Part shown: positions 5,199 through 28,365 of the stretch, piece after piece | Layout of the letters: every line of letters begins with the position of its first letter | Numbering within the stretch: position 1 is the stretch's first letter | Origin: Fluviispira vulneris | Lineage (GTDB): Bacteria; Bdellovibrionota_B; Oligoflexia; Silvanigrellales; Silvanigrellaceae | Length of the DNA stretch: 64,000 nt | Assembly: GCF_014281055.1 (NCBI RefSeq) | Contig: NZ_JACRSE010000006.1 | Coordinates: 186,001 to 250,000 of the forward strand | Reading direction: 5' to 3' | Position numbers and translations under genes: made by a program | Notes under the pieces: generated by a model | What the model was told of the DNA's origin: nothing | The model's input: the letters and a program-made list of their open reading frames with translations, nothing else | Databases searched by the model: none

Positions 5199-6491
5199 TT
5201 ATTGAATAGCCTCGCGAATACGTGCAGAAAGGAAATCCATGCACCAAACGACTAAGAAAATAAGGAAAGCTAGACTTCCTACTTGTGTCCAACGCGCAAG
5301 CATTTGTTCTTGGATAAGGATACTTCCGATACCTCCTCCACCAACAAGTCCAATCACTGTCGCCATACGCACGTTGATATCCCAACGATAAATTGTAAAG
5401 GCTAAGAAAGGCAAAATAACTTGCGGTACCACAGCATACCAAACAATTGCTACGCGCGTAGCGCCTGTTGCTTGGAGGGCCTCAATGGGGCCTTCTTCAA
5501 CGCCTTCAACGGCCTCAGAGTACTGTTTCACAAGACTTGAAACACTGTGGATCATGAGAGCAAGGGATCCAGCAAATGGGCCAATGCCAATCCAAACAGA
5601 AAAGAGAATCGCCCAAATAAGTGGTTCGATGGAACGGGTGATATTCATATATGAACGAATAAGGACATAAACAAAACGCATCATGCGGCTGTGACGTGTT
5701 AAGTTACGTGAAGCAAAAAAGGATAGGACAAATGCAACTGGAACACTAAAAAATGTTGCTATAAATGCAAGATAGATAGACTCTGCTAGTTTACTGAGAG
5801 CTTTACTAAAGTAACTTAAATCGTTTGGTTGACATGACACTGAAAATAAATCGACTTGATTTACAAAGAAAATATTATGTAACTTTACAAATAAATTAAG
5901 AAACCATTGCATTGAATCGTATATAGAAAACGAACCAATATTTTCCCCTACTCCAGGTATTCCACAAGCTAATTGCAAACTCAAACGACCTGCACCAAGC
6001 AACCCATCAATTTGGAAAATTTTCGCTATACTTACATTGGTTAAAACCCAGCCCGTAATCACTGTAACAATAACGAGGATAAGTGCTTCGATCCTAGCCC
6101 ATTTCCAATGTTTGGTTAATTTTAAGGAGTCTTCTGGATTGTTTACTTGCAGCTTAGATATGCTTGCTATCCATGAGCCAAAGCCTTTGCATTTCATAGA
6201 AATTGTGAAGCCAATGACTGCTCCAAGAGCCATGATATTAAAGAACCAAGACCAAGGAAAATCAAAGTAACGACTATCATATTCAAGAAATTCAATAATT
6301 TTCAGTGCTGTTCCGTTAGGAGGATCATTATATGCTAAATATTCAACTCCGGGTAAAATAATAGAACAAATTAAAACTTTCGAAAGGAATATTAAAAAAT
6401 ATCCCCACACAAACATTTCAATAACAACACCAGCAATTTGTCTTTTACGACGTTCAGATTCAATAACAGGAATATAGGAAGGAAATCGCAT
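5199..6491 (-). CDS. phnE: Phosphonate-type ABC transporter permease with extra N-terminal membrane region
   Basis: Inner-membrane permease of the PhnE family. The C-terminal half (about 210-430) is a canonical PhnE domain with the EAA-like coupling segment EEGPIEALQATGATRVAIVWYAVVPQ, preceded by the typical NITRSIEPLIWAILF helix and followed by VGGGGIGSIL. The N-terminal half (about 1-200) adds hydrophobic segments and a long periplasmic-looking stretch that ordinary PhnE proteins (about 260-280 aa) lack. Total length is 430 aa. The start overlaps the phnC stop by one base, implying translational coupling. No phnD binding protein is present here. The substrate could be phosphonate, phosphite or another oxyanion. 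Confidence 0.85.
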   Translation of the reverse strand: MRFPSYIPVIESERRKRQIAGVVIEMFVWGYFLIFLSKVLICSIILPGVEYLAYNDPPNGTALKIIEFLEYDSRYFDFPWSWFFNIMALGAVIGFTISMKCKGFGSWIASISKLQVNNPEDSLKLTKHWKWARIEALILVIVTVITGWVLTNVSIAKIFQIDGLLGAGRLSLQLACGIPGVGENIGSFSIYDSMQWFLNLFVKLHNIFFVNQVDLFSVSCQPNDLSYFSKALSKLAESIYLAFIATFFSVPVAFVLSFFASRNLTRHSRMMRFVYVLIRSYMNITRSIEPLIWAILFSVWIGIGPFAGSLALMIHSVSSLVKQYSEAVEGVEEGPIEALQATGATRVAIVWYAVVPQVILPFLAFTIYRWDINVRMATVIGLVGGGGIGSILIQEQMLARWTQVGSLAFLIFLVVWCMDFLSARIREAIQ

Positions 6492-11319: not shown

Positions 11320-11506
11320 ATCCATTCATCGGTCACTCTTGTCACTAAATCAAATTCATGTCATGATCATAGACTGTTGTTACTTTCAAAATTAATGAAT
11401 AATTTAAGTACAGCGAATTGCCTAAACTCTTTTGTTCTCTCGCCCATTGAGGCTGTGTTGTGTGGTTGTCCACTGTGAGACAAAAAATTATGGAGTGGGT
11501 CTTAAT

Positions 11507-13369
11507 ATGACTGATCATTTAAATAAAACACCGCAAAGGTGTTGTCGTTCTTTTCGCAAATCCCTTGCCGATGGAGATTGCATTCTCCTTGGGGGATCCA
11601 CCGGTTCTCTACTTTATGAAAAAGGCATCTTTATCAATCGTTCTTTTGATGAAGTGAATTTATCTCAACCCGATTTAGTGAGCAAAATTCACAGTGATTT
11701 TATTTCTGCTGGTGCACAAATAATTGGTACAAATACTTGGGGCGCAAATTCATTTAAATTAAAAGCATTTGGTTTAGAAAATAAATTCCTTGAAATCAAT
11801 TTCGCTGGAGCCGCTTTGGCGCGCAAAGCTGCACACAATCAAACGTGGGTCGCTGGTACTTTAGGCCCCTTGGGTGTGCGTATAGAACCTTGGGGCCCCA
11901 CTTCACTCGATGAAGCACGCGATGTTTTTAAAGCACAAGCAGAAGCACTTATCAAAGGGGGAGTTGATCTTTTTATAATGGAAAGTTTTGCTGACCTTTA
12001 TGAAATTCAACAAGCTATTCGTGCCGTTCGAGAATTGGGAGATCTTCCCATCATTGCCATGATGAGTGTGAATGAAGAAGGACAAAGTTTATATGGAACG
12101 GAACCGGAATGGTACATCCGAAAACTCGATGAATGGGGCGCAGATGTCGTAGGTGCAGATGGCGGAAATGGACCTACACCCATGCTTGAGCTGCTTAAGA
12201 AATTTAAAACATCCACAAAAAAACCAATTATTCTTTGCCCCAATGCTGGTCAACCACGAATGGTCGATGGCCGGCTTATCTATATGGCAAGTCCAGAATA
12301 TATGGGGGAGTTTGCTAGACAGGCTTTTCTTAAAGGTGCACGTTTATTAGGTGGGAGTAGCGGAACTTCTCCTGCTCATATAAAAATCATGGCTGGCGCA
12401 TTGCGGCAAGCAAAAGCATTTGATCAAGTTGAAATAAAACATCACGAAATTATTGATCACACTCTTGTGCACCCAACGACAGTGCCCCGTGTGCAACAAA
12501 GTAACTGGGCTAAAAAAATAGCGGATGGCGAGTTTGTCGTCTGTATGGAACTTTTACCACCTAAAGGACTTGAAACAGAAAAAATTATTGAACGATCTGA
12601 AATATGCAAAAAGCACGGTATCGATGCCATAAATATTCCCGATGGACCACGTGCATCGGCTCGCATGAGTTCTTTAGCCACAGCTTGTATTATTGAACGA
12701 GAAGTCGGCATAGAAAGCATATTGCATTATGCCTGTCGTGATAGAAATTTATTAGGTATTCAAAGTGATTTACTAGGAGCTTCCGGTCTTGGAATAAAAA
12801 ATATACTCTGTATCACTGGGGATCCACCTAAAATGGGACCTTATCCCAACGCAACAGCCGTTTTTGATATTGATGCCATAGGACTCGTTAATATGGTAAC
12901 AAGATTAAACTCTGGGTATGACTTGGGTGGCTCGAGTATCGGTCGACACACCAGTATGAGTGTTGGTGTGGGTGCAAATCCAGTGGCAATTGATCTCGAA
13001 AAAGAAAAATCTCGTTTCCGCTATAAAGTAGAAGCGGGAGCGGAATGGGCCATTACCCAACCCGTCTTCGATTCTGAATCACTCTTTCGTTTTTTAGAAT
13101 TTTCTTCGCAATTCAAAATTCCAATTATCGCCGGAATTTGGCCTTTAAAAAGCATTCGCAATGCTGAATTTATGGCCAATGAAGTTCCTGGAGTTTTTAT
13201 TCCAAATAAAGTTTTAGAACGCATGCGTAAATGTAAAACTGCAGAAGAACAGACTCAAGAAGGAATCCTTATTGCTCGAGAACTTATTGAAGAAATCAAA
13301 TCATCAGTACAAGGGTTACAAATCAGTGCTCCACTTGGTATGGTTGATTTTGCATTAAAACTTCTATAA
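11507..13369 (+). CDS. Methylenetetrahydrofolate reductase fused to a homocysteine-methyltransferase-like domain
   Basis: Two-domain protein of the YitJ type. The N-terminal half (about 15-310) is homologous to homocysteine S-methyltransferases but lacks all three zinc cysteines: the NC of the usual GxNCxxGP motif reads D218-G219, and GGCCGT reads GGSSGT with Ser284-Ser285. The C-terminal half (about 335-620) is a flavin-dependent MTHFR making 5-methyl-THF, with MELLPPKG including the catalytic Glu, HYACRDRN for FAD, ITGDPP, GVGANP and EWAITQPVFD. I start at the ATG at 11507; the frame is open to 11432 but without homology. It is first in an operon with ferredoxin and metH, which would use its product. 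The methyltransferase half is probably inactive as a zinc enzyme. Confidence 0.88.
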   Translation: MTDHLNKTPQRCCRSFRKSLADGDCILLGGSTGSLLYEKGIFINRSFDEVNLSQPDLVSKIHSDFISAGAQIIGTNTWGANSFKLKAFGLENKFLEINFAGAALARKAAHNQTWVAGTLGPLGVRIEPWGPTSLDEARDVFKAQAEALIKGGVDLFIMESFADLYEIQQAIRAVRELGDLPIIAMMSVNEEGQSLYGTEPEWYIRKLDEWGADVVGADGGNGPTPMLELLKKFKTSTKKPIILCPNAGQPRMVDGRLIYMASPEYMGEFARQAFLKGARLLGGSSGTSPAHIKIMAGALRQAKAFDQVEIKHHEIIDHTLVHPTTVPRVQQSNWAKKIADGEFVVCMELLPPKGLETEKIIERSEICKKHGIDAINIPDGPRASARMSSLATACIIEREVGIESILHYACRDRNLLGIQSDLLGASGLGIKNILCITGDPPKMGPYPNATAVFDIDAIGLVNMVTRLNSGYDLGGSSIGRHTSMSVGVGANPVAIDLEKEKSRFRYKVEAGAEWAITQPVFDSESLFRFLEFSSQFKIPIIAGIWPLKSIRNAEFMANEVPGVFIPNKVLERMRKCKTAEEQTQEGILIARELIEEIKSSVQGLQISAPLGMVDFALKLL

Positions 13370-13410: not shown

Positions 13411-13701
13411 ATGTCAAAACCAATAGTCCACTTTGTTTTAGAAGATATGGACGTCGAAGTTCCTATAGGAACACCATTTCAAGAAGTCGTAGATGCATGT
13501 CAAGCAGATGTTACCTTTGGTTGTAGAAATGGAACTTGTGGAACTTGTCGTATCAGAATTGAAGAAGGCCTAAATAATCTTTCAGAAATGCAGCGAGAAG
13601 AAAAAGATTTCTTAATATCAATCGATGCTGAAAAAAATGAAAGACTTGGTTGCCAAGTCTGCATCAAAGGGAATTGTAAAATAAGTTATATAGGTCTATA
13701 A
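13411..13701 (+). CDS. 2Fe-2S ferredoxin
   Basis: Small plant-type ferredoxin of 96 aa. The cluster ligands are CRNGTCGTC (C-x4-C-x2-C) plus a distal cysteine in the LGCQVCIKGNC segment. It sits 41 bases after the MTHFR gene and 2 bases before metH, so it is almost certainly co-transcribed and perhaps translationally coupled to metH. Known methionine synthases need reductive reactivation of cob(II)alamin, and MTHFRs need a reductant for FAD; a dedicated ferredoxin could serve either. This role is inferred from position only. A leader SD, AGGAAC, lies just before the start. Confidence 0.9.
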   Translation: MSKPIVHFVLEDMDVEVPIGTPFQEVVDACQADVTFGCRNGTCGTCRIRIEEGLNNLSEMQREEKDFLISIDAEKNERLGCQVCIKGNCKISYIGL

Positions 13702-13703
13702 AA

Positions 13704-16700
13704 ATGAAAAAGATAATTAAAGAATTGATGCAAGAAAAAATTCTCGTGCTTGATGGGGCAATGGGCACCCAAATATTTGCGAACAATCCTACAATAGATG
13801 ATTATGGCGGAATTGATTTTGATGGTTGCGTAGAATTACTGAATGAAAGACGAAAAGAATGGATTCAAACCATTCATAATAATTATTTTAATGCGGGATC
13901 CGATGCAGTCGAAACAAATACTTTTGGTTGCAATGAAGTCGTTCTTGCAGAATTTGGTATTGCCCATAGAACGTGTGAATTAAATATCATTGCCGCAAAA
14001 CTCGCACGGGAAGTTGCAGATAGCTACAAAACTCCAAAATATGTTATTGGCAGCGTAGGTCCCGGCACAAAATTAATTTCACTTTTACAAATAGACTATG
14101 CAACCCTTTATAAAAGTTATTTTGAACAAATGAAAGGGTTATTAATCGGTGGGGTTGATGTAATATTAATTGAAACCTCACAAGATATTAACCAAGTAAA
14201 AATCGCTGTGCGTGCTGCAAAAAATGCAATGCGTGAGTTAAAAGTTAAAGTACCAATTTGGACACAAGTCACAATTGAATCTTCTGGCACAATGCTTGTA
14301 GGGAGCGACATTCAATCTGCATTAACGGCTATAGAGTGTTTAGATATTGATCTAATTGGAATGAATTGTGCAACGGGCCCAGACGAAATGCGTTCCCATA
14401 TTGCCTATTTATCGCAAGCCGCACCTTTTGCACTCAGTGTCCTGCCTAATGCAGGTCTGCCACAAAATATTGGTGGAAAAACAGTATATCCCTTAGGCCC
14501 TATCGATTTTTCTAAAAAAGTAACAGATATGGCAAAGGATTTTTCCTTAAATGTCGTTGGTGGCTGTTGTGGTACAACTCCAGAACATATTAAGGAGCTA
14601 GTTACTTTAGCCAATCGATTGCCTGTAGGAATTCGTAATATAAATCCTGAAAGATGCGTGAGCAGTTTATACTCTTCTGTTTCGTTAAATTTAGAACCAA
14701 AACCACTTTATGTTGGTGAACGTACCAATGCCAATGGTTCAAAAAAATTCCGTGATTTACTTGCAGAAAATGATTATGATGGACTTGTGCAAATAGCCAA
14801 AGGACAACTTAAAGAAGGCGCACATATTCTTGATGTCTGTGTCGCATATGTATCTCGTAACGAAACAGAAGATATGGAGAAATTTCTTAAAAAACTTGTT
14901 ACACAAGTGAATATTCCATTGATGATCGATTCAACCGAAGTCGGCGTGATAGAAAAAGCCTTACAAATTGCCCCTGGGAAATGTATCGTAAACTCTATTA
15001 ATTTTGAAGATGGCGAAGAAAAAGCAAGAAAGATATTATCCTATTGTAAAGAATATGGTGCCGCTGTTGTTGCCTTAACGATTGATGAAGAAGGCATGGC
15101 AAAAACGGTTGAAAAAAAATTATCTATTGCAGAAAGAATATATAATCTTGTTGTTAGTGAATTTAAAATAAACCCTGGTGATCTTATTTTCGATCCATTG
15201 ACCTTTACTTTAGGCAGCGGTGACGAAGAATTTAGAAAATCAGCTATTGCAACGTTAGATGGTATAAAAAAAATAAAAGAAAAATTTCCTGGTGTGAGAA
15301 CAATTCTAGGATTATCCAATGTGAGTTTTGGTCTCAATCCCTTCACACGGCAAATGCTCAATTCCATGATGCTTTACTATGCGGTAAAAAATGGTCTTGA
15401 TTTAGCAATATTAAATGCATCTAAAATAATTCCAGTTGCAAAAATAGAAGAAGAGGATAGAAAATTATTTACCGATCTTATTTATGACAATCGCAGAGAA
15501 GACTATGATCCTTTGAAAAAAATATTAGCCAAATTTTCAAATGTTAAAAAAGAAATTTCTGAAGCTATTTCCAAGCGTTCGACAATGTCTATTGAGGATA
15601 AATTGAAAATCGATATTATAGATGGAGAAAAGCAGTATATTTCTGAAGATTGTCAAGATGCTCTGCAAAAATATTCTCCATTGCAAATAATAAATACGAT
15701 TTTACTTGATGGTATGAAAGTGGTAGGCGAACGTTTTGGTGCAGGAGAAATGCAATTGCCTTTCGTCCTTGAAAGTGCTGAAGCTATGAAAACAGCAGTG
15801 AAATTTCTTGAACCTTTTATGGAAAAAAAATCAAGTTATAGCAAAGGAAAAATAATTCTTGCCACAGTAAAAGGGGATGTTCATGATATTGGCAAAAATT
15901 TAGTTGAAATCATTCTTTCCAATAATGGTTTTGAAGTTGTTAACTTAGGAATCAAACAACCCATAGAAAGCATAATTGAAAAATATCGCGGTTCCGATGC
16001 TGATGCTATTGGTATGAGTGGATTACTCGTAAAATCAACAGTTATCATGAAAGAAAACCTTGAATATATGAACGATAAAGGATTTAGCATCCCGGTTATT
16101 TTGGGGGGAGCAGCCCTCACCCGTGAATTTGTTGAAAATGATTGCCAAGCAACCTATAAAGGCGCTGTCTTCTATGCGTTTGATGCCTTTGAAGGTTTAA
16201 AAATAATGGAAGGACTGGCTGGTAAAAAAGGAAATCTCACAAAAGAAGAGATCAACACTATTCGCAAAAATTCCAAAGCAACACCAAAAGAAAATAAAGA
16301 AGAAAACGATTCAACGATTAAAATAATTCGAAAAGGTGAAGCAAAAATCTCTCTTGATGAATATTTACAGAGTTCTTGGGTACGTAAAAATGAAAAAATT
16401 CCTTCCCCACCTTTCTGGGGTACAAAAATAATAACAGAACCGCTTGAAAATATTTTTGAGTTTCTTGATGAATTTGCTCTTATTCGCAGCCGTTGGGGCT
16501 TTTCACAAGGTAACAAAAGCGACGCTGAATTCGATCAAATTTTAAATGAAAAAGCTTATCCTCTTTATAAAAAAATGAAACAGGAATTGATTGAAACTAA
16601 AAAAATTCAGCCTAAAGCAATTTATGGATATTATCCTGCGTGTTCTCGAAAAAATAAAGTTCTAGTTTATGCCTTAAATACAAATGCAAATATTCCACCG

Positions 16701-17210
16701 CAAAAAAGAGAAATAATTGCAGAATTTGAATTTCCCCGCCAAAGCTCAGGTCGCAGACTGTGCATATCCGATTTTTTACGTAATGAATCTTCTGGAGAAA
16801 TAGATACGTTAGCTGTACAAATTGTAACTTTAGGAGAAGAACTCTCAAAGGAAACAAGCCTTCTTTATCAGCAAGAAAAATTTTCTGAGTATTATTATTT
16901 GCATGGTATTGGTACAGAACTCACGGAAGCTTATGCTGAACTCATTCACAAGCGTATCCGAACTGAACTTGGTATTGTTAATAAAGATGCTAAAATATTG
17001 CGGCAACTTTTTAGTCAAGGATATCAAGGTTCTCGCTATTCTTTTGGTTACCCTGCCTGTCCAGATATGGAAAGCAATATTCCATTATTAAAGTTATTAG
17101 ATGCAGAGAGAATTGCTGTTCGAGTTTCTGAAGCATTTCAAATGGCTCCTGAGATGACCACAAGTGCTCTAGTGTGCTGGCACCCACAAGCCCGTTACTT
17201 TTCAACCTAA
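13704..17210 (+). CDS. metH: Cobalamin-dependent methionine synthase
   Basis: MetH transfers the methyl group of 5-methyl-THF to homocysteine through methylcobalamin. All four modules are present in order: homocysteine/zinc domain (about 1-310) with Cys222 in GMNCATGP and Cys288-Cys289 in GGCCGTTPEH; pterin-binding barrel (about 330-600) starting VGERTNANG; cap and B12 domain (about 620-860) with DVHDIGKN, where His727 is the lower axial cobalt ligand; and the AdoMet reactivation domain (about 890-1168) with YGYYPACS and RYSFGYPACPD. Length 1168 aa is close to the E. coli enzyme (1227). Because its zinc domain is intact, MetH does not need the degenerate domain of the upstream fusion protein. 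No cobalamin riboswitch precedes the operon. Confidence 0.97.
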   Translation: MKKIIKELMQEKILVLDGAMGTQIFANNPTIDDYGGIDFDGCVELLNERRKEWIQTIHNNYFNAGSDAVETNTFGCNEVVLAEFGIAHRTCELNIIAAKLAREVADSYKTPKYVIGSVGPGTKLISLLQIDYATLYKSYFEQMKGLLIGGVDVILIETSQDINQVKIAVRAAKNAMRELKVKVPIWTQVTIESSGTMLVGSDIQSALTAIECLDIDLIGMNCATGPDEMRSHIAYLSQAAPFALSVLPNAGLPQNIGGKTVYPLGPIDFSKKVTDMAKDFSLNVVGGCCGTTPEHIKELVTLANRLPVGIRNINPERCVSSLYSSVSLNLEPKPLYVGERTNANGSKKFRDLLAENDYDGLVQIAKGQLKEGAHILDVCVAYVSRNETEDMEKFLKKLVTQVNIPLMIDSTEVGVIEKALQIAPGKCIVNSINFEDGEEKARKILSYCKEYGAAVVALTIDEEGMAKTVEKKLSIAERIYNLVVSEFKINPGDLIFDPLTFTLGSGDEEFRKSAIATLDGIKKIKEKFPGVRTILGLSNVSFGLNPFTRQMLNSMMLYYAVKNGLDLAILNASKIIPVAKIEEEDRKLFTDLIYDNRREDYDPLKKILAKFSNVKKEISEAISKRSTMSIEDKLKIDIIDGEKQYISEDCQDALQKYSPLQIINTILLDGMKVVGERFGAGEMQLPFVLESAEAMKTAVKFLEPFMEKKSSYSKGKIILATVKGDVHDIGKNLVEIILSNNGFEVVNLGIKQPIESIIEKYRGSDADAIGMSGLLVKSTVIMKENLEYMNDKGFSIPVILGGAALTREFVENDCQATYKGAVFYAFDAFEGLKIMEGLAGKKGNLTKEEINTIRKNSKATPKENKEENDSTIKIIRKGEAKISLDEYLQSSWVRKNEKIPSPPFWGTKIITEPLENIFEFLDEFALIRSRWGFSQGNKSDAEFDQILNEKAYPLYKKMKQELIETKKIQPKAIYGYYPACSRKNKVLVYALNTNANIPPQKREIIAEFEFPRQSSGRRLCISDFLRNESSGEIDTLAVQIVTLGEELSKETSLLYQQEKFSEYYYLHGIGTELTEAYAELIHKRIRTELGIVNKDAKILRQLFSQGYQGSRYSFGYPACPDMESNIPLLKLLDAERIAVRVSEAFQMAPEMTTSALVCWHPQARYFST

Positions 17211-26067: not shown

Positions 26068-28365
26068 ATGAGTGATATTTGTACGCATATTTTAGGATAC
26101 CCAAGAATTGGCGGTCAACGTGAATTAAAAAAAGCGGTCGAATCTTATTGGAAACGTGAATTAACTGCACTGCAATTAGAAGAGATTGAAAAAAAAATAA
26201 AAGAAAATAATTGGAAAATTCAGAGTGAAGCAGGCTTGAGTTATGTAACTGTAGGTGATTTTGCCAACTATGACCACGTCCTTGATACCAGTATATTATT
26301 GGGTAATATTCCAGAACGTTTCATCGATAAAAATGTTGATATAAACTTAAATACAGTTTTTTGCATGGCACGTGGGCAAGCTCCACTTTATAAGAGCACC
26401 AGAGCTTGCGAAATGACAAAGTGGTTTAATACTAACTATCACTATATAGTGCCTGAGTTTATTAAAGGCCAAGAATTTAAAATTTCTTTAAATTCACTGT
26501 TTGATCAGATTGATCACGCAAATTCACTTGGCTACAAAATAAAGCCAGTTTTAATTGGCCCACTTACATATTTATGGCTTGGTAAAGCAATTGATAAGGA
26601 TTTTAATAAACTTGATCTTTTAGGCAACTTAACCCAAGCTTACAATGAAATTTTTCAACAACTATCTCTTAAAAATATCGAATGGCTTCAGTTAGATGAA
26701 CCTATTTTATCTTTAGAAATTTCGGCTGAATGGAAAAATGCCTTTTCAACTTCATATAAAAAATTAGACTTTAAAAATTTCAAAATTCTGTTGACGACCT
26801 ATTTCTCATCAGTTGAAGAAAATCTCGATCTAATAAACAAATTACCTATTCATGGTCTCCACGTGGATCTTTGCTCAGCACCACAACAATTGAAAGCTAT
26901 TTTAAAAAATTTTTCCAATGATAAAATTCTTTCACTTGGAATTATAAATGGAAGAAATATTTGGAAAGCAGATATTCTAAAAATCACAAATGAGCTGCAA
27001 GAAGCTAAGAAAATTTTTGGGCAAAAATTATGGCTTGCAAGCAGTTGTTCCCTTTTGCACAGCCCTGTTGATCTTGAACAAGAAAATAAGCTTGATAGCG
27101 AAATTAAAAATTGGCTTGCATTTGCAAAACAAAAAGTTGGCGAAATAAAACTCTGCGCAGATATCTTAAGTAACAACTTATCAGATAAAGGTAAAATAAA
27201 ACTTAACGAGATAAATGAAGCATTAAAAGGCAGAAGTGTTTCAAAAAGAGTGCACAATGAAGAAGTTAAAAAAAGAATATCACAAATTTCGTTAAGTGAT
27301 TCTGAAAGAAAAAGCAAATATAGTGAACGTGCTCTAAAGCAACGAGAGATTCTTAAATTACCACTATTCCCGACAACGACAATTGGCTCCTTTCCTCAAA
27401 CACAAGATATTCGTTCTATTAGGCAGAAACTTAAAAACGGTAAAATAGATCTTGAAACCTATACCCAAGAAATCCGTATTCATATTTTAGAAACAATAAC
27501 GAAACAAGAAACCCTAAATATAGATGTTCTCGTGCATGGGGAAGCCGAGCGCAATGATATGGTCGAATATTTTGGGGAACTTTTAGAAGGATTCGTATTT
27601 ACTTCACACGGCTGGGTGCAAAGTTATGGATCCCGCTGTGTAAAACCACCTATTATTTTTGGAGATGTTTCCCGCCCAAAACCAATGACAACAGAATGGG
27701 CAAAATACTCTCAATCATTAACAAAACGACCAGTTAAAGGAATGCTCACAGGTCCTGTTACCATTCTCTCATGGTCATTTGTACGTGACGATCAACCTGC
27801 GCAAGAAACAGCATTGCAAATTGCTTTCGCTTTGCGAGATGAAGTAAATGATTTAGAAAATGCTGGAATAAAAATTATCCAAATCGATGAGCCAGCCTTT
27901 CGTGAAGCCCTACCATTAAAAAAATCAGAATGGCAAGAGTATTTAAATTGGGCCGTCAATTGCTTCCGTGTGTCTTCTTCAGGAGTAAAAGATTCCACAC
28001 AAATTCACACACATATGTGTTACTCAGAGTTCAATGATATTATTAAATCCATTGCTGACTTAGATGCCGATGTTATAACAATTGAATGCTCACGTTCAAA
28101 TATGGAACTATTAGAAGCCTTTGAAAATTATTCATACCCTAATGAAATTGGACCAGGAGTTTATGATATACATTCTCCACGCATACCAGAGAAAAGTGAT
28201 ATAAAAAATCTCCTTGAAAATGCTTTAAAATATATTCCAGCTGATAGACTTTGGATAAATCCTGACTGTGGGTTAAAGACTCGAAATTGGCCTGAAGTGG
28301 AAATTGCTTTAAAGAATATGACAGAAGCTGCAAAAGATCTCAGAAAAAAATACGAAGCAATTTGA
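26068..28365 (+). CDS. metE: Cobalamin-independent methionine synthase
   Basis: MetE methylates homocysteine directly from 5-methyltetrahydropteroyl-glutamate, in the cytosol. Length 765 aa is standard for the two-barrel enzyme. The N-terminal barrel begins with LGYPRIGGQRELKKA, and the catalytic C-terminal barrel with FPTTTIGSFPQT. Zinc ligands are His649 and Cys651 in HTHMCYS and Cys734 in NPDCGLKTRNW, with a conserved Glu in VHGEAERNDMVEYFGE. It stands alone behind the SAM-II-like leader and ends at an intrinsic terminator. Together with metH it gives the cell a B12-free route; only this one shows visible SAM control. Confidence 0.97.
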   Translation: MSDICTHILGYPRIGGQRELKKAVESYWKRELTALQLEEIEKKIKENNWKIQSEAGLSYVTVGDFANYDHVLDTSILLGNIPERFIDKNVDINLNTVFCMARGQAPLYKSTRACEMTKWFNTNYHYIVPEFIKGQEFKISLNSLFDQIDHANSLGYKIKPVLIGPLTYLWLGKAIDKDFNKLDLLGNLTQAYNEIFQQLSLKNIEWLQLDEPILSLEISAEWKNAFSTSYKKLDFKNFKILLTTYFSSVEENLDLINKLPIHGLHVDLCSAPQQLKAILKNFSNDKILSLGIINGRNIWKADILKITNELQEAKKIFGQKLWLASSCSLLHSPVDLEQENKLDSEIKNWLAFAKQKVGEIKLCADILSNNLSDKGKIKLNEINEALKGRSVSKRVHNEEVKKRISQISLSDSERKSKYSERALKQREILKLPLFPTTTIGSFPQTQDIRSIRQKLKNGKIDLETYTQEIRIHILETITKQETLNIDVLVHGEAERNDMVEYFGELLEGFVFTSHGWVQSYGSRCVKPPIIFGDVSRPKPMTTEWAKYSQSLTKRPVKGMLTGPVTILSWSFVRDDQPAQETALQIAFALRDEVNDLENAGIKIIQIDEPAFREALPLKKSEWQEYLNWAVNCFRVSSSGVKDSTQIHTHMCYSEFNDIIKSIADLDADVITIECSRSNMELLEAFENYSYPNEIGPGVYDIHSPRIPEKSDIKNLLENALKYIPADRLWINPDCGLKTRNWPEVEIALKNMTEAAKDLRKKYEAI

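Follow-up and report, generated by a model that had tools for sequence, protein, structure and literature searches.

The MTHFR fusion protein encoded in the window (the whole stretch of 64,000 nucleotides of DNA that was analysed) lacks all three zinc cysteines in its homocysteine S-methyltransferase-like half, and this N-terminal half is probably a pseudo-methyltransferase, in which the zinc site would have been lost once while the barrel was kept as a non-catalytic module of the only MTHFR. Judged from sequence, the zinc-less half is probably non-catalytic and belongs to a conserved operon of fusion gene, ferredoxin gene and metH. The features on which this reading is based are collected in Table 1.

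Results

Domain composition of the fusion protein

The fusion gene, for which an alternative in-frame TTG start is possible at 11432, matched NCBIfam PRK08645, an equivalog with an N-terminal HMT and a C-terminal MTHFR, at 682.6 bits (cut-off 453), a score that is blind to the zinc site. PF02574 (S-methyl_trans) matched the N-terminal half at 174 bits (cut-off 22) and was covered almost in full (profile positions 3-282 of 283), and PF02219 (MTHFR) matched the C-terminal half at 123 bits (cut-off 24). In the MTHFR half, E348, D439 and Q518 were invariant in the alignment, and presumably these residues carry the roles assigned in E. coli MetF (catalytic Glu and Asp; EFFPP and TGDPP regions). The fusion was the sole MTHFR detected in the genome (98.9% complete), and it is approximately 50-54% identical to zinc-keeping members of its family. 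An AlphaFold2 model of the fusion had a mean pLDDT of 84. The N-terminal half of the model retained the BHMT/MetH fold (Z 33-35, rmsd 2.2-2.7, 276-287 residues), with human BHMT at Z 35.3 and rmsd 2.2 over 278 residues, and the MTHFR half fitted T. thermophilus MTHFR at Z 30.2 and rmsd 2.3 over 267 residues. The mutual orientation of the halves is unsure at a pTM of 0.54, and the predicted two-domain arrangement was left unused.

Table 1. Positions in the window of the fusion gene, its domains and motifs, and the two genes that follow it
Feature	Position	Strand	Basis
Fusion gene (homocysteine S-methyltransferase-like half + MTHFR half), 620 aa	11507..13369	+	Pfam S-methyl_trans + MTHFR; NCBIfam PRK08645
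Zinc-less homocysteine-methyltransferase-fold half, residues 28-298	11588..12400	+	Pfam S-methyl_trans; AlphaFold2 model fit to human BHMT
Gly29 codon; Asp in zinc-keeping relatives, aligned with T. maritima MetH Asp19	11591..11593	+	Alignment
Family-specific loop after strand 3, GPLGVRIEPWGPTSLDEA, residues 120-137	11864..11917	+	Conservation counts, zinc-less vs zinc-keeping
First dead zinc motif GADGGNGP, residues 216-223; Gly219 replaces Cys	12152..12175	+	Alignments
Second dead zinc motif GGSSGT, residues 282-287; Ser284 and Ser285 replace Cys-Cys	12350..12367	+	Alignments
MTHFR half, residues 336-603	12512..13315	+	PF02219; sole PF02219 match in genome
[2Fe-2S] ferredoxin, 96 aa, CX4CX2CXnC; ends 2 nt before metH	13411..13701	+	Pfam Fer2 (PF00111), 35.3 bits, cut-off 21
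metH, cobalamin-dependent methionine synthase, intact zinc cysteines and activation domain	13704..17210	+	TIGR02082, 1278.9 bits vs 1010.85

Replacement of the zinc cysteines

The sequence-only reading had described the zinc cysteines as lost from the fusion and as complete in the adjacent MetH, and both descriptions were confirmed: the translated fusion carries GADGGNGP and GGSSGT, and the adjoining MetH retains GMNCATGP and GGCCGT. A phmmer alignment of the fusion to T. maritima MetH (1q7m) was near-gapless (E 3.5e-43) and placed Gly219 on Cys207 and Ser284/Ser285 on Cys272/273, with numbers counted in that alignment; these three cysteines of T. maritima MetH are what we take to be the published zinc ligands. 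None of the three positions in the N-terminal half of the fusion thus holds a cysteine, and the motif flanks G..GP, PNAG.P and GG..GT are retained. The near-gapless alignment and the conserved flanks rule out a misaligned motif. Six further genomes of the genus carry the same letters (DGGNGP and GGSSGT), and therefore neither a sequencing error nor a mutation of a single strain explains them. MetH binds its zinc through one cysteine that follows strand 6 and a pair that follows strand 8 (PMC539065).

Distribution of the zinc-less fusion in two phyla

The survey covered two phyla, with class-mates in Bdellovibrionota and with Acidobacteriota. The nearest named relative was Fluviispira multicolorata (94%), which places the genome in the Silvanigrellaceae. 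Within the genus of the window, all genomes with the gene carry DGGNGP and GGSSGT, and the other Silvanigrellaceae genera have xGGxGP and GGCSG, with a single cysteine left. Cys219 and Cys285 are absent in all Silvanigrellaceae with the gene and in Holophagaceae-like Acidobacteriota (Geothrix and relatives), the zinc-less fusions of which showed 56-65% identity. Across the 67 distinct sequences of the zinc-less clade, 65 have Gly and 2 have Glu at position 219, position 285 is always Ser or Ala, and position 218 varies among N, D, I and S; Cys284 is retained in 60/67, and its change to Ser was seen only in the window's genus. The resulting ligand triplets are GCS, GCA, GSS, ECA or GDA, and none is the Cys-Cys-Cys of a competent YitJ/SamT active site, which was present in 95 of 95 distinct zinc-keeping sequences from class-mates and other Acidobacteriota. 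Of the residues proposed for a test of fixation in orthologues (D218, G219, S284 and S285), all four are shared within the genus; outside it, fixation does not extend to all of D218, S284 and S285, and what holds clade-wide is the loss of Cys219 and Cys285.

Among 396 sampled Acidobacteriota genomes, the zinc cysteines were missing from the 33 best matches (>1000 bits) and from the next one (genome G352), and all 36 of the lower-scoring matches examined keep CCC. The G352 gene (L267 432-2303) is a diverged zinc-less fusion with LSEGQGP and GGCAGV that adjoins rplM-rpsI-rpsB-tsf; neither a ferredoxin gene nor metH was found within 2.8 kb of it.

In the tree, the zinc-less proteins formed one side of a branch with 100/100 support (24 zinc-less vs 32 zinc-keeping). 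MetH proteins from the same loci likewise grouped Silvanigrellaceae with Holophagaceae, apart from most class-mates. These sequence data would most simply be explained by one ancestral loss of the zinc site and a horizontal transfer of the operon from one phylum to the other, in either direction. Vertical inheritance of the zinc-less form in the class is ruled out, since CCC is found in every class-mate from outside the family for which a fusion could be assigned. The loss was also stepwise, a course that the sequence-only reading had overlooked: Cys219 and Cys285 went first, and Cys284 and Asp29 later, almost exclusively in the genus of the window.

In one Silvanigrellaceae draft genome (G009), the fusion was read as two overlapping ORFs of 326 and 288 aa (L269 796-2627, contig C144). 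This split is an apparent frameshift at an A-run between the halves, which may be a draft error, a real fission or frameshifting. In this draft the fusion and the ferredoxin-metH pair are each found at the end of a contig, and the assembly has probably divided a single operon.

Association of the fusion with ferredoxin and metH

Between the fusion and metH lies a gene that the earlier reading had also missed, which encodes a Fer2-domain ferredoxin with the CX4CX2CXnC motif (FGCRNGTCGTCR...LGC). The order of fusion, [2Fe-2S] ferredoxin and metH is the same in Silvanigrellaceae and Holophagaceae, and in Geothrix rubra the same ferredoxin gene ends 1 nt before metH. Of the 61 distinct zinc-less loci with enough flank, 60 have a CX4CX2CXnC ferredoxin after the fusion, vs none of 57 zinc-keeping loci; because the zinc-less state has one origin, this association counts as one evolutionary event and not as dozens. 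A downstream metH was found at 92/93 zinc-less loci (duplicates included) vs 3/74 zinc-keeping loci. The three exceptions are in Blastocatellia, where metH is divergent and without ferredoxin; they make a neighbouring metH less specific to the zinc-less state, for which the ferredoxin is the better mark. No earlier description of a metF-ferredoxin-metH operon or of a zinc-less MTHFR fusion was found in the open-licence literature.

A ferredoxin-metH pair also stands alone (L249/L258, contig C4) in the class-mate G030, the zinc-keeping fusion of which is located elsewhere, and this indicates that the ferredoxin is tied to MetH and not to MTHFR. The MetH of G030 is of the Silvanigrellaceae/Holophagaceae type and 58% identical to that of the window, and the MetH proteins of most class-mates are 31-33% identical. 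Sequence similarity of this kind suggests further horizontal transfer.

Methionine pathway and riboswitches

The window also encodes MetE at 26068-28365 (PF01717, 512 bits), and the genome therefore has a cobalamin-independent methionine synthase beside the cobalamin-dependent one. Neither the genome of the window nor most relatives gave a flavodoxin-family match. A SAM-I riboswitch lies directly upstream of the zinc-less fusion in four Holophagaceae loci (L055, L056, L072 and L090), and L055, L056 and L072 have a second one after metH (SAM-I matches at 5823-5927 and 11790-11890 in L056, and at 5799-5912 in L090); these data indicate that the operon answers to AdoMet there. The window and the four Silvanigrellaceae loci searched gave no Rfam riboswitch at gathering scores. 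A SAM-alpha riboswitch was found upstream of a zinc-keeping fusion.

Constraint on the barrel and its old pocket

To compare constraint between the halves, the ratio of mean protein distances (homocysteine half to MTHFR half) was used. The ratio was 1.51 in Silvanigrellaceae and 1.48 in Holophagaceae among zinc-less proteins, and 1.47 in Acidobacteriota and 1.60 in class-mates among zinc-keeping ones, and these similar values indicate no relaxed constraint after the loss of zinc. In a single Silvanigrellaceae pair with usable dS, omega was 0.028 for the homocysteine half and 0.025 for the MTHFR half; the all-pair dN/dS values of Holophagaceae were set aside owing to strong GC bias and saturation. 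The homocysteine half is approximately 61% identical between the two phyla, and the fusion is full length except in a few draft genomes. The proposal that this half has been conserved in some role other than that of a zinc enzyme is thus supported by the clade-wide loss and by a relative constraint equal to that in zinc-keeping relatives; the role suggested in the sequence-only reading, a regulatory or structural domain, would fit these data.

Several residues of the old pocket (Glu159, Asn76 and His291, and mostly Asn246) are retained in the zinc-less clade, and some ligand may therefore still bind. MetH holds the amino group of homocysteine with conserved carboxylates (PMC539065); since they align with Glu146 and Asp19 of T. 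maritima MetH, Glu159 and Asp29 would be those carboxylates. Asp29 is present in 95/95 zinc-keeping vs 61/67 zinc-less sequences, and is Gly or Ser only in the window's genus. Thr160 is invariant in 95/95 zinc-keeping sequences and is Gly, Ser or Ala in 67/67 zinc-less ones. No new Cys, His or Asp/Glu cluster has been fixed in the clade in exchange for the zinc ligands.

The loop of residues 120-137 (GPLGxRxEPxGPTSxxEA) is conserved family-wide, unlike in MetH, and became more invariant in the zinc-less clade. Conservation of W129 was 0.97 in zinc-less vs 0.47 in zinc-keeping sequences, and that of P131/T132/S133 was 1.00 vs 0.74/0.88/0.85. The zinc-less set is somewhat less diverse (mean identity of the homocysteine half 0.69 vs 0.62), and these apparent gains in constraint are therefore inflated.

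Discussion

The fusion would descend from a YitJ/SamT-type protein with a zinc-dependent homocysteine methyltransferase barrel, in which the zinc site was lost a single time, in the ancestor shared by the genes of Silvanigrellaceae and those of Holophagaceae type. The MTHFR half would be the cell's source of CH3-THF and the adjoining MetH its user, and the ferredoxin, on its best reading, would supply electrons to re-reduce cob(II)alamin on MetH. The inert barrel may shape MTHFR (packing, oligomer or substrate access), dock MetH or ferredoxin, or do both. By analogy, this pseudo-methyltransferase reading leans on the N-terminal barrel of MetE as a precedent.

Docking or AdoMet sensing by the N-terminal half is what we infer as its possible roles, and a barrel that lost homocysteine activation and kept its AdoMet site could act as an allosteric throttle on MTHFR. 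In the description of YitJ/SamT, MTHFR is joined to an (R,S)-AdoMet homocysteine methyltransferase (PMC6302742), and a protein of this kind that lost its zinc but kept the AdoMet site would therefore be an MTHFR with a sensor attached. In eukaryotes, AdoMet regulates MTHFR by way of a different domain, which bacterial MTHFRs are said to lack (PMC13001107); moreover, the loop at the barrel mouth tightened while the zinc site was lost, and the Holophagaceae riboswitches fit such a role. However, the AdoMet-binding residues of the family are putative, the loop may be an interface, Asp29 on the substrate side is also gone in the window's genus, and the riboswitches were not seen in the Silvanigrellaceae loci or the window, so that AdoMet sensing is considered rather unlikely. 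An electron path, in which FAD of the fusion reduced by NAD(P)H passes electrons through ferredoxin for MetH reactivation (or ferredoxin passes them to MTHFR) and the barrel is the docking site, would account for the position of the ferredoxin gene, its spacing of 1-2 nt from metH in both phyla, and the lack of flavodoxin-family matches. The lone ferredoxin-metH pair of G030 argues against it, and the docking role of the barrel is putative; this path is regarded as quite unlikely.

Persistence of the chemistry, with homocysteine or another thiol activated by another metal site or without metal, is very unlikely. The retained pocket residues and the Cys284 kept in most of the clade would agree with it, but MetH and BHMT are (Cys)3Zn enzymes (PMC539065), no replacement ligands have been fixed, position 218 varies, Thr160 has been replaced throughout, and this genome already has MetH and MetE for the reaction. 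It is highly improbable that the barrel is a functionless remnant in decay, carried along since the MTHFR half is needed: the stepwise loss of the pocket and the split gene of G009 point in that direction, but relative constraint is unchanged, the half is well conserved across two phyla and full length outside a few drafts, and the A-run may mark a draft error. The pseudo-methyltransferase reading is thus preferred. A bolder reading, put forward tentatively as a rather unlikely possibility, is that the barrel has turned into an allosteric domain of a bacterial MTHFR that senses AdoMet or a partner, and that with its dedicated ferredoxin it forms a three-gene unit for CH3-THF supply and MetH reactivation which has moved between Bdellovibrionota and Acidobacteriota. 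If true, this barrel would be an independent, non-homologous counterpart of the regulatory domain of eukaryotic MTHFR.

Databases that name the zinc-less half a working methyltransferase are probably wrong. With one active site devoid of metal ligands across a clade of two phyla, it is unsafe for pathway predictions to count these PRK08645 proteins as a methionine synthase activity. The clade offers a clean comparison of zinc-keeping and zinc-less forms, both for the use of a dead barrel to its live partner and for a possible regulation of bacterial MTHFR by a domain fused to it. The conserved order of the three genes also suggests how MetH might be reactivated in genomes with no detected flavodoxin.

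Comparison with known systems

The fusion has the same domain order and length as YitJ/SamT (PRK08645), but differs in the two or three missing zinc cysteines and in its operon with ferredoxin and metH; with these cysteines missing, one of the two activities named by PRK08645 is probably absent. It shares with the homocysteine domain of T. maritima MetH (1q7m/3bof) the barrel fold and the PNAG and GG..GT motifs, and the two can be aligned over the whole domain; however, Cys207/272/273 there are Gly/Ser/Ser here, and the domain is joined to folate-binding and cobalamin domains there and to MTHFR here. BHMT and MmuM (1lt8, 5dmm) have the same fold as the N-terminal half (Z 32-35, rmsd ~2.2), but are zinc-dependent stand-alone enzymes, unlike the fusion.

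The N-terminal barrel of MetE is a Zn/Hcy barrel with erased sites that is retained beside an active barrel, and one old zinc cysteine survives in most of its sequences (PMC539065), which parallels Cys284 of the zinc-less fusions. That barrel arose by internal duplication within MetE and shows no sequence homology, whereas the erased barrel here is fused to MTHFR. Eukaryotic MTHFR, like the fusion, combines a catalytic barrel with a second, non-catalytic domain; however, its AdoMet regulatory domain is C-terminal and of an unrelated fold (PMC13001107), whereas the second domain here is an N-terminal barrel with a putative role in regulation.
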